A DNA stretch of 8,735 bases from Desulfobacterales bacterium (GTDB taxonomy: Bacteria > Desulfobacterota > Desulfobacteria > Desulfobacterales > Desulfobacteraceae). The position numbers and the translations under genes were made by a program. Of the stretch, positions 926 to 4,329 are shown piece after piece. The first letter of the stretch is position 1. Every line of letters begins with the position of its first letter. The stretch spans positions 1 through 8,735 of the forward strand of contig JAKSAU010001055.1 in assembly GCA_022361535.1 (NCBI GenBank). The letters run 5' to 3'. The notes below the pieces were generated by a model. That model worked only from the letters and a program-made list of their open reading frames with translations, had not been told where the DNA came from and did no database searches.

Positions 926-2050
926 ATGAAGCATATTGTTTCGTCTGTCATTTTGGGCAGTCTAATTTCATTTACATTCCTTTTATTCATAATGAAGCCG
1001 GTTTGGGCCTCAGACTACTTCACTATCATCGAATATGAAAAACGCCATCCGGGTCAAAAAACGATTGGCGATACTTTTGCACAAATCGTTAAACAAAAAG
1101 GAACTCCCGTGTCATCTTCAGTCCGCCAAAAGCAGACAACCATAGTAGTAATTTATCCCGGTCAGCAGGTTTCCGATTATTGGCGCAGAAGTATTGCTGC
1201 ATTCAAAGCAAGAATGGATGAAATAGGCCTGAACTACAAAATCAAGGAATTCTTTACCAAACCCGCTGTAGATTACAGAATACAGGAGCAAAACATAAGA
1301 GAAAGCCTTGAAATGGAACCGGATTATTTGATTTTCACTTTGGATATCCAGCGCCATAAAAGGATTATCCAAAGGATCATCACCCGAAAGTCGCCCAAAC
1401 TAATTCTTCAGAATATCACTACCCCTTTAAAGACCTGGGAAGGAAAGCAACCTTTTTTGTATGTAGGGTTTGATCATATCACCGGAACCCGAAAACTTGC
1501 CCGGTACTACCTTAATAAAACGAGTGGCAGCGGGAGTTATGCACTCTTATATTTTTCCAAAGGATATGTATCTGCAATGCGTGGAGATTCATTTATTGAA
1601 AGCCTTGAAGACTATCCGGATATTAAACAGGTTGCAGCTTACTACACCGACGGCAGTCGGGAGAAAGCAAAACTGGCGGCTTTAGATGTGTTAAAGACAG
1701 ATCCTGATATCCGGTTTATCTATTCCTGCTCAACAGATGTGGCTTTAGGTGCTATTGATGCCTTGAGACAAACCACCGGCACCGACCACATCCTGGTTAA
1801 TGGCTGGGGAGGTGGTTCCACTGAATTAGATGCCATTATAGCAGGTGATATGGATGTGACTGTCATGCGTATAAATGATGACAATGGTGTGGCCATGGCC
1901 GAAGCAATTCGCCTTGACATTGAAGGCAAAGGGGATCAGGTGCCCCAAATTTTTTCGGGTGAGTTTGCCCTTATTCAAAAAGGTATCCGCCCTGAAGAGT
2001 TATCAAAGCTAAAACAAACTGCATTCCGTTATTCCGGTGTGACCCCCTAA
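926..2050 (+). CDS. luxP: LuxP-type periplasmic autoinducer-2 binding protein
   Basis: A 374-residue precursor of the periplasmic sugar-binding protein class. An N-terminal signal peptide (K2, hydrophobic 4-21) ends near VWA-SD at about residue 28, so the mature protein is periplasmic. From memory of Vibrio harveyi LuxP, long stretches match almost word for word (PGQQVSDYW, DYLIFTLD, LILQNITTP, QPFLYVGFDH, CSTDVALGA, NGWGGGS). Residues that bind the borated AI-2 furanosyl diester there (Q77, S79, W82, N159, R215, T266, W289, R310) correspond to Q81, S83, W86, N163, R219, T270, W294 and R315 here. That pattern, with both borate-facing arginines, separates LuxP from LsrB- or ribose-type binders. 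The expected role is to bind AI-2 and regulate the partner kinase encoded next, whose ATG overlaps this stop codon. Alternative: another sugar-like ligand, unlikely with the pocket intact. Start chosen by its ribosome binding site and signal peptide. Confidence 0.93.
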   Translation: MKHIVSSVILGSLISFTFLLFIMKPVWASDYFTIIEYEKRHPGQKTIGDTFAQIVKQKGTPVSSSVRQKQTTIVVIYPGQQVSDYWRRSIAAFKARMDEIGLNYKIKEFFTKPAVDYRIQEQNIRESLEMEPDYLIFTLDIQRHKRIIQRIITRKSPKLILQNITTPLKTWEGKQPFLYVGFDHITGTRKLARYYLNKTSGSGSYALLYFSKGYVSAMRGDSFIESLEDYPDIKQVAAYYTDGSREKAKLAALDVLKTDPDIRFIYSCSTDVALGAIDALRQTTGTDHILVNGWGGGSTELDAIIAGDMDVTVMRINDDNGVAMAEAIRLDIEGKGDQVPQIFSGEFALIQKGIRPEELSKLKQTAFRYSGVTP

Positions 2051-4329
2051 TGCAATTATTTAAAATCAATACCCCCAAGCCCCACTCGCATGTTATAAGT
2101 ATCTATGTGCTTATTGTCCTGATCGGTTTCTCATCTCTGCTTCTGATTTGGTCATATAAATCAGGCATCCAGGCCCTTGATAATGAGGTCAAAGACAACT
2201 TTGAACAACGCCGGACGATAAGTGAAATTATACTCGAACACCAGATGACGCTTGTGGATTTGGCTTTGAAAGAGATACTTGAAAGCCAGGATCTTGTGGA
2301 CGCAGTTTTCCGCAAAGACAAAAATAAAGCACAAATTTTGCTTTTATCAGCCATTGACAAAAACACCAGTTTTATTCTGGATATCGGATTTCTCAGTTTG
2401 ACAGACACTGACGTATGGGTGGATGCAAGTTCATCCTTTTATAATTTCGCACCAGTATTTACCGAATTAAAATCTGTCCAGATCCCGGTAAAAGGAATGA
2501 TACACGCAACTGACGCACCTGACTCTTTGACCCTGGTTATAAAATCAATGCCTGTAGTTCACCCTGACAGTGGAAAGGTACTGGGTCGTATTACCGGAGG
2601 GTTTGTTTTAAACAATCACCTGGAATTCATGGAACAAGTACAGGACAAAACCCACTCAAAACTGGTGTTGTTATTTTCCGACGGAAACTTGATAAGTGCC
2701 AATACATCCAGAAAGGATCCAATAGTTGCAGAGCTCACGAAGGCTTACGCCGACGGTTTGAAGCCGGGGCACCATTTTTCCGTGCAAGGAATTATAGCAG
2801 GGTTGCAGCCATTGCACATCAACGACAGTCATTGTCCACTTGAATTCATAATGGCTATCTCAGACAATGCATACCAAGAATTGAAAAGAAACTACCAGAT
2901 CAAAACCTTAGCAATGTTTGCATTGGCCATGATTTTCTCATTGTTATCCGTGTGGGTGATTCGAAGACTGACGACGCCTTCTATAGACAGACTGCTAAAC
3001 TATTCCGAAAATATTACCTCCGGCGATGTCCAAGCCAAGTATAAACCTGGGATGCTCATCGAGTTAAACCAAGTGGGACATTCCATGGAAACAATGGTTG
3101 AAAGCCTTGCCCAAGCAAACCAAGAATTAGTTTATCTACGCAATTACTTGTCTAACATCATTGATTCCATGCCATCTATACTGGTGGGTATCGATACGAC
3201 CGGCCGTGTTACCCAATGGAACCGAGAGGCTGAAAAAAACACTGGCATATCCCGGTCACAAGCCTTAAACACCGGCCTAAAACAAACACTTCCCCGTCTT
3301 TCAGATGAGATGGATCGGATTGAATTGGCCATCCACCAACGTCGTCCTCAAACTCTTCACAAACGCCCTTTTCACATCGAGAGCGAAACCTTTTATGAAG
3401 ATATTACTATTTATCCTTTAACTGCTAATGGGGCGGAAGGAGCCGTTATCCGTATTGATGACGTCACAGATGCAGTTCTGATGGAAGAAAGGATGGTTCA
3501 ATCGGAAAAAATGATGTCCGTAGGAGGACTTGCAGCTGGGATGGCCCATGAAATTAACAACCCCTTAGCCGGTATGGTCCAAACGGCTGACACCCTTAAT
3601 AAAAGACTTACAACGATTGATTTGCCTGCCAATGTTAAAGCTGCAGAAAATTTGGGGCTTTCAATGGAAACCCTAAAAGAATTCATGGAGGCCAGAAAAA
3701 TACCTCAGATGCTTGAAGGTATAAGAACTTCTGGTTTAAGGGCCGCAGATATCGTAAGCAATATGCTCAGTTTTGCCAGAAAAGCAGACTCAGGTATGCT
3801 GCCCAATAACTTGACCGATCTTATGGATGAAACTCTGCTATTAGCGGAAAGCGATTATGACTTGAAAAAGAAATATGATTTCAAGCAAGTAAAAGTCACA
3901 AAAAAATACGAATCTGATATACCGCCTGTCCCATGCGAACCAGGAAAAATTCAACAGGTATTTTTAAATATTCTAATAAATGGCGCACAAGCGATGTATG
4001 ACTTCAAAGAAACTTCAGGAAAAGATTATACTCCTGAATTTATCATTTCGATCACACAAGACAGCAAAATGAATCATGCTGTTATTGAAATTGAAGATAA
4101 CGGCCCCGGTATGAATGAGCAAATCCGGAAAAGAATTTTTGAACCGTTTTTTACTACAAAATCCCAAGGTGAAGGAACCGGCCTAGGTCTTTCCGTATCC
4201 TATTTCATTGTGAAAGAAAACCATAACGGCTCTATAAGCGTTTCGTCAAGCCTTGGGGCTGGTGCCAAATTTATTATAAAACTCCCAATAAAGCAGAGTG
4301 GTTCTCTTACACGGCCAACTGGCGATTAA
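2050..4329 (+). CDS. luxQ: LuxQ-type AI-2 sensor histidine kinase without receiver domain
   Basis: A 759-residue inner-membrane kinase. TM1 is about residues 15-34, a periplasmic sensor 36-285, TM2 287-304, a HAMP-like linker 305-360 and a PAS domain about 365-475. The HisKA H-box GGLAAGMAHEINNPL carries the phospho-accepting H500. The ATPase has an N-box (N640, N644), DNGPGM at 683-688, FEPFFTTK at 697-704 and G2 box GEGTGLGLS from 707. The periplasmic part and pairing with a LuxP homologue indicate a LuxQ-like receptor reading LuxP-AI-2. Its ATG shares one base with the upstream stop (TAATG) and lacks its own Shine-Dalgarno, so translation is probably coupled. Unlike Vibrio LuxQ it stops after the ATPase: no receiver is fused, and no LuxU or response regulator lies beside it, so its phosphorelay partner is unknown. 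About 50 extra residues lie between the H-box and the LRAADIV segment compared with the kinase at the right edge. Confidence 0.88.
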   Translation: MQLFKINTPKPHSHVISIYVLIVLIGFSSLLLIWSYKSGIQALDNEVKDNFEQRRTISEIILEHQMTLVDLALKEILESQDLVDAVFRKDKNKAQILLLSAIDKNTSFILDIGFLSLTDTDVWVDASSSFYNFAPVFTELKSVQIPVKGMIHATDAPDSLTLVIKSMPVVHPDSGKVLGRITGGFVLNNHLEFMEQVQDKTHSKLVLLFSDGNLISANTSRKDPIVAELTKAYADGLKPGHHFSVQGIIAGLQPLHINDSHCPLEFIMAISDNAYQELKRNYQIKTLAMFALAMIFSLLSVWVIRRLTTPSIDRLLNYSENITSGDVQAKYKPGMLIELNQVGHSMETMVESLAQANQELVYLRNYLSNIIDSMPSILVGIDTTGRVTQWNREAEKNTGISRSQALNTGLKQTLPRLSDEMDRIELAIHQRRPQTLHKRPFHIESETFYEDITIYPLTANGAEGAVIRIDDVTDAVLMEERMVQSEKMMSVGGLAAGMAHEINNPLAGMVQTADTLNKRLTTIDLPANVKAAENLGLSMETLKEFMEARKIPQMLEGIRTSGLRAADIVSNMLSFARKADSGMLPNNLTDLMDETLLLAESDYDLKKKYDFKQVKVTKKYESDIPPVPCEPGKIQQVFLNILINGAQAMYDFKETSGKDYTPEFIISITQDSKMNHAVIEIEDNGPGMNEQIRKRIFEPFFTTKSQGEGTGLGLSVSYFIVKENHNGSISVSSSLGAGAKFIIKLPIKQSGSLTRPTGD

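Follow-up and report, generated by a model that had tools for sequence, protein, structure and literature searches.

The window analyzed here is the whole 8,735-nucleotide stretch of contig JAKSAU010001055.1 (positions 1 to 8,735, forward strand) from a Desulfobacterales bacterium (GenBank assembly GCA_022361535.1). At positions 926 to 4329 it carries a gene pair encoding a LuxP-type periplasmic binding protein and a sensor histidine kinase with a LuxQ-type periplasmic domain, a candidate receptor for autoinducer-2 (AI-2) resembling that of Vibrio. The pair has the following features:

926..2050, forward strand: LuxP-type periplasmic binding protein of 374 amino acids, with a signal-like hydrophobic helix at the N terminus
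1166..1183, forward strand: codons of Q81, S83, and W86 (pocket; LuxP Q77, S79, and W82), from the alignment
1412..1414, forward strand: codon of N163 (pocket; LuxP N159), from the alignment
1580..1582, forward strand: codon of R219 (pocket; LuxP R215), from the alignment; R also in the ribose binder 2ioy
1733..1735, forward strand: codon of T270 (pocket; LuxP T266), from the alignment; D in 2ioy
1805..1807, forward strand: codon of W294 (pocket; LuxP W289), from the alignment; F in 2ioy
1868..1870, forward strand: codon of R315 (pocket; LuxP R310), from the alignment; Q in 2ioy
2048..2052, forward strand: TAATG stop/start overlap, read from the sequence
2050..4329, forward strand: membrane sensor histidine kinase of 759 amino acids without a receiver domain (Pfam)
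2173..2868, forward strand: LuxQ-type periplasmic domain, residues 42-273 (PF09308)
3148..3465, forward strand: PAS domain, residues 367-472 (PF00989)
3526..4293, forward strand: HisKA and HATPase_c domains, residues 493-748 (PF00512 and PF02518)

A preliminary description of this DNA had reported two open reading frames (ORFs) with a stop/start overlap, eight LuxP pocket residues, and an adjoining LuxQ-like kinase, all of which we recovered. The luxP ORF as called begins upstream at GTG 899; the start used here, ATG 926, is that of the preliminary description. The final A of the luxP TAA (2048-2050) is the first base of the kinase ATG (2050), an overlap that makes translational coupling of the two genes likely. 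The kinase matches the Pfam LuxQ-periplasm family PF09308 at 75.6 bits (cutoff, 25.7) as well as the PAS, HisKA, and HATPase_c families, possesses H500 and the N, G1, F, and G2 boxes, and has hydrophobic stretches beginning near residues 15 and 286. Neither Pfam nor a receiver profile detected a receiver domain in the kinase, whose HATPase_c domain stops at residue 748 of 759. The earlier designation of a complete LuxP-LuxQ pair stands in that a LuxQ-periplasm kinase adjoins luxP, but not with respect to the receiver or the NCBIfam LuxQ model (NF041947), against which the kinase scores 152.5 bits, far under the cutoff of 1200. Promoter-like sites near the pair (17, versus a mean of 11.3 and standard deviation of 3.5 in shuffled sequences) and terminator-like sites (6, versus 4.7 and 1.8) show little excess and were not used.

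The binding protein shares 46% identity with V. harveyi LuxP over 340 residues. At eight positions that we take to be the ligand contacts of LuxP (Q81, S83, W86, N163, R219, T270, W294, and R315), all eight residues align with identical residues of V. harveyi LuxP. The accessible portion of PMC6452917 names N159, R215, and R310 of LuxP among the contacts. Against solved structures, LuxP chains score 336 bits and the next best, a sugar binder, 51.5 bits, and the full-length similarity to LuxP exceeds that to other sugar binders. The 2ioy alignment spans four of the eight pocket positions, sharing R219 and replacing T270, W294, and R315 with D, F, and Q. Structure prediction, proposed earlier as a check, yielded a model nearest to liganded LuxP. 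Chance or a generic sugar-binder likeness is ruled out by the bit scores, the 2ioy residues, and the predicted fold.

We scanned the genomic loci of the best 80 of 97 relatives, ranked by their match to the window, so the resulting counts are not family-wide. All eight pocket residues are kept in 77 of these 80 loci and in 113 of 119 listed homologs (the two sets may share members), and R219, T270, W294, and R315 are invariant in both sets.

To assess who makes AI-2, we searched for luxS in 42 genomes among those of the 80 loci and for S-adenosylhomocysteine (SAH) hydrolase, a pathway that generates no AI-2, in 20. The luxS gene is present in 16 of the 42: 2 of 13 Desulfobacterota, 6 of 6 Campylobacterota, and 8 of 11 Gammaproteobacteria, with none in nine Alphaproteobacteria, two Bdellovibrionota, and one Magnetococcia genome. 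The 13 Desulfobacterota comprise 11 so named, L009 (within the order of genome G007), and L003 (placed by the LuxP tree only). SAH hydrolase occurs in 11 of the 13 Desulfobacterota, including both luxS bearers, and in none of the three Campylobacterota tested. We also surveyed a phylum sample, the order of genome G001 (taken as Desulfobacterales), and that of G007 (taken as Desulfovibrionales), scoring only each genome's best first-look candidates. None of 291 genomes of the G001 order has luxS over the cutoff (one weak match with stops lies below it), and G001 and G002, the nearest genomes by luxP, possess SAH hydrolase and no luxS match.

A LuxP phylogeny of 87 rows was constructed with two ATP-binding cassette (ABC)-linked rows as the named outgroup, four Vibrio rows, and no genuine ribose binder. 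Support of 100/100 unites the window with two Desulfobacterales metagenome-assembled genomes (MAGs) and, equally, the four Vibrio rows in one branch of their own, on an unresolved backbone; the phylogeny suggested earlier thus sets the window apart from Vibrio. The eight taxonomic groups require 8 changes on this tree (minimum, 7; shuffled mean, 37.2), a count that leaves out 11 rows outside these groups, Vibrio among them. Recent acquisition of the genes from a Vibrio would fit their sparse presence (LuxP in 1 of 247 genomes of the phylum sample at E 1e-60, namely, G001 itself, and in 5 of 291 of the G001 order at E 1e-40), but it is almost certainly not the explanation given just 46% identity to V. 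harveyi LuxP and the two separate groupings in a tree with only four Vibrio sequences. As to the earlier alternatives of transfer or deep ancestry, the tree thus speaks against a recent Vibrio donor, and ancient transfer and sparse loss are indistinguishable. The Desulfobacterota-type host proposed from the rest of the window agrees with the LuxP tree and with the RACo-like protein at 5278-6918, whose best matches in the eight genomes searched reach 66% identity in G002, 63% in G001, 53% in G008, and at most 35% in the five others.

Our favored reading, to which we assign a probability of roughly 0.7, is that the two genes form a receptor that senses AI-2 from other species through a LuxQ-type kinase. 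AI-2, which is borated in sea water and would most likely be bound in its borated furanosyl form, would make the LuxP-type protein close in the periplasm. The closed protein, docked on the tandem-Cache LuxQ-type domain, would alter kinase activity in one direction or the other. As the kinase itself lacks a receiver, the phosphoryl group would pass from H500 to a separate, putative response regulator not linked to the pair. The signal would originate from other species, since the order of the nearest relative appears to lack luxS.

Several observations weigh against this reading. In the window and in loci L001 and L002, the genes immediately flanking the pair include no response regulator; among the 23 other loci of the kinase type, the gene immediately after that of the kinase encodes a small single-receiver protein in L005, L007, and L016, and L003 has a large receiver-bearing ORF there. 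LuxP is rare in the G001 order, and two of its five LuxP proteins have E at the Q77 position. E at this position is found in the LuxQ-partnered members L020, L091, L092, and L105; the window protein itself keeps Q. LuxP relatives in ABC operons retain seven (Roseicitreum, L087) and six (Ruegeria, L086) of the eight pocket residues, which makes these residues insufficient as evidence for AI-2. Judging from its relatives, of which many are MAGs with no completeness stated, the host of the window would lack luxS, while G008 and G013 carry luxS together with luxP. In the G007 order, luxS is present in 12 of 247 genomes and accompanies LuxP in 8.

Some of these points would suit a pair that senses another furanose or its borate ester, such as a deoxypentulose, in place of AI-2. 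The pocket residues of the ABC-operon relatives, the E for Q77 in some LuxQ-linked members, the 0 of 291 genomes with luxS, and the title of PDB entry 4yr7 (LuxP crystallized with 1-deoxy-alpha-L-xylulofuranose-1,2-borate) all fit such a ligand. We nevertheless consider it unlikely. The ABC relatives share only about 29% identity with V. harveyi LuxP, and a 100/99 branch with very long ends separates them from the remaining 85 rows, although they had been named as the outgroup; the window protein keeps Q77, and its model is nearest to liganded LuxP. The earlier proposal of a borate-AI-2 receptor for cross-species signaling is thus supported by LuxP homology, pocket, and fold, but only in part given that the pocket also occurs in ABC-linked relatives. 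The L087 relative lies beside RbsD/FucU and class II aldolase genes, and the operons of L086 and L087 possibly serve AI-2 or pentose uptake. No ABC gene was found among the seven scanned proteins of the window (1 to 8735).

Production of AI-2 by the host, with the pair serving its own quorum sensing, would parallel the 8 of 17 luxP-bearing genomes of the G007 order that have luxS, as well as G008 and G013, and PMC5187520 draws this inference for Desulfovibrio hydrothermalis. For the window this appears very improbable given the lack of luxS over the cutoff across the G001 order and the SAH hydrolase of G001 and G002, which have no luxS match. A Fisher test in the G007 order gives an odds ratio of 50 for luxS with luxP (ignoring relatedness), but luxS needs only one change on the LuxP tree (1-2 in bootstraps), and the link is therefore suggestive rather than independent proof. 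Some sulfate reducers with luxP could perceive AI-2 of their own making, but the window bacterium, whose relatives seem unable to produce this signal, probably detects that of other species.

The genes around the pair are as follows. About 260 bases past it, positions 4589-6918 of the window hold one-carbon/corrinoid genes: an ORF with a weak, subthreshold match to a methionine-synthase activation domain, followed by the RACo-like corrinoid activator with a 2Fe-2S-like domain. In L001 (4319-7135), an aldo/keto reductase with a 4Fe-4S domain begins 13 bases after the pair and precedes a gene resembling methylenetetrahydrofolate reductase (Pfam), and in L002 (8305-10023) ORFs with closely similar starts follow in the same order, 10 bases after the pair. 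The L001 and L002 neighbors hint that the receptor may act on one-carbon metabolism; different genes occupy this place in the window. On the reverse strand, the window carries a 192-residue ORF without a convincing Pfam family (6965-7543) and a partial hybrid histidine kinase with a receiver (7627-8733), unrelated to the pair in position and strand.

A search with the LuxP-type protein gave 1352 matches at E 1e-20; ABC-linked relatives attain scores in this range too, so that the number of LuxP proteins is at most this high. Hosts of the relatives belong to the Desulfobacterota, Campylobacterota, Alpha- and Gammaproteobacteria, Bdellovibrionota, and Magnetococcia. A LuxQ-type ORF adjoins luxP downstream in 66 of the 80 loci when every ORF of at least 80 amino acids is considered; the partner profile, seeded with the window kinase plus four homologs and then iterated, had found 59 in the first round and 61 after iteration among the initial partner ORFs. 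In three loci the contig ends within 200 bases, and in 11 no LuxQ-type neighbor was found (seven Motilimonas, two Methylocystaceae MAGs, one Halomonas, and one Arcobacter). In Motilimonas, three contigs contain two luxP genes apiece (L033/L064, L039/L056, and L045/L051), with no LuxQ-type neighbor found. Pfam LuxQ-periplasm exceeds its cutoff in all 11 partners scanned of the 66, and 15 of the 17 LuxP genomes among the 247 of the G007 order have a LuxQ-type neighbor.

The 66 partners comprise 25 GGDEF+EAL proteins, 23 kinases, 12 hybrid kinases, and 6 others, as classified by one-sequence seeds iterated over the same ORFs with a Pfam check on 11 partners only. Of the six others, L004 carries a SpoIIE phosphatase (Pfam), a contig end truncates L019 and L080, and no output domain is seen in L017, L048, and L054. 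The L004 protein (9167-11404, in a Desulfococcaceae genome) fuses LuxQ-periplasm and PAS domains to the phosphatase and adjoins luxP. On the LuxP tree, cyclic di-GMP versus kinase output requires 3 changes and the three output classes 11, leaving out the class "other" and partnerless rows and assuming a hybrid kinase state for one Vibrio row. The mirror-tree correlation between LuxP and the sensor domain is 0.83 (66 pairs, without L080; none of 2000 permutations reaches this value), to which we give little weight because shared descent alone can produce it. We tentatively suggest, at somewhat less than even odds, that LuxP and the LuxQ-type Cache domain together make up an ancient, transferable sensing head on kinases, hybrid kinases, GGDEF-EAL proteins, and a SpoIIE phosphatase in at least four phyla, with many hosts not making AI-2, eavesdropping as its commonest use, and the Vibrio circuit as one specialized case. 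The present pair turns scattered reports of LuxP proteins with no recognized partner into a testable family in which one receptor head drives a phosphorelay or cyclic di-GMP enzymes. It also allows a clear test of whether bacteria unable to make AI-2 sense it via a Vibrio-type borate pocket, in sulfate reducers of marine habitats that matter for sediments and corrosion.

Vibrio LuxQ contains PAS, HisKA, and HATPase_c domains, as does the window kinase. The two also share the tandem-Cache LuxQ-type periplasmic domain (PDB 3c38 and 2hje), but the sensor domains are only 15-16% identical, and the window kinase is of the classical type without a C-terminal receiver. The binding protein resembles V. 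harveyi LuxP (PDB 1jx6, 2hj9, and 1zhh) in identity, the eight pocket residues, and its predicted liganded-form fold and differs in host lineage and in that its ligand is inferred; it shares the Peripla_BP_4 family and R219 with ribose-type periplasmic binding proteins. The parts of the literature available to us vary in how they treat the family. LuxP is still called Vibrio-only in PMC7584622, and PMC4822843 lists LuxQ-periplasm in 115 proteins, of which 112 are kinases and 1 is a cyclic di-GMP enzyme; within this limited open literature, we found no description of a family of LuxQ-periplasm partners whose outputs are GGDEF-EAL or SpoIIE. LuxP homologs without luxS had already been reported from Desulfovibrio, Desulfuromonas, and Oceanospirillales (Rezzonico and Duffy 2008, PMC2561040). 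PMC5187520 tabulates Desulfovibrio LuxP and LuxQ matches and puts forward a system like that of Vibrio for D. hydrothermalis (repeated in PMC8586430), and PMC12268683 counts 267 LuxP proteins, with AI-2 binding in the 3 tested, and sees LuxP as an uptake protein. In the consulted portions of PMC2561040, PMC5187520, and PMC12268683, the homologs likewise represent the LuxP family outside the Vibrionaceae, several without luxS, but their partners are given as PAS-domain regulators or none, LuxP is assigned to uptake, or the LuxQ matches are weak (29-31% identity over 31% of the query), unlike the adjoining LuxQ-periplasm kinase of the window.
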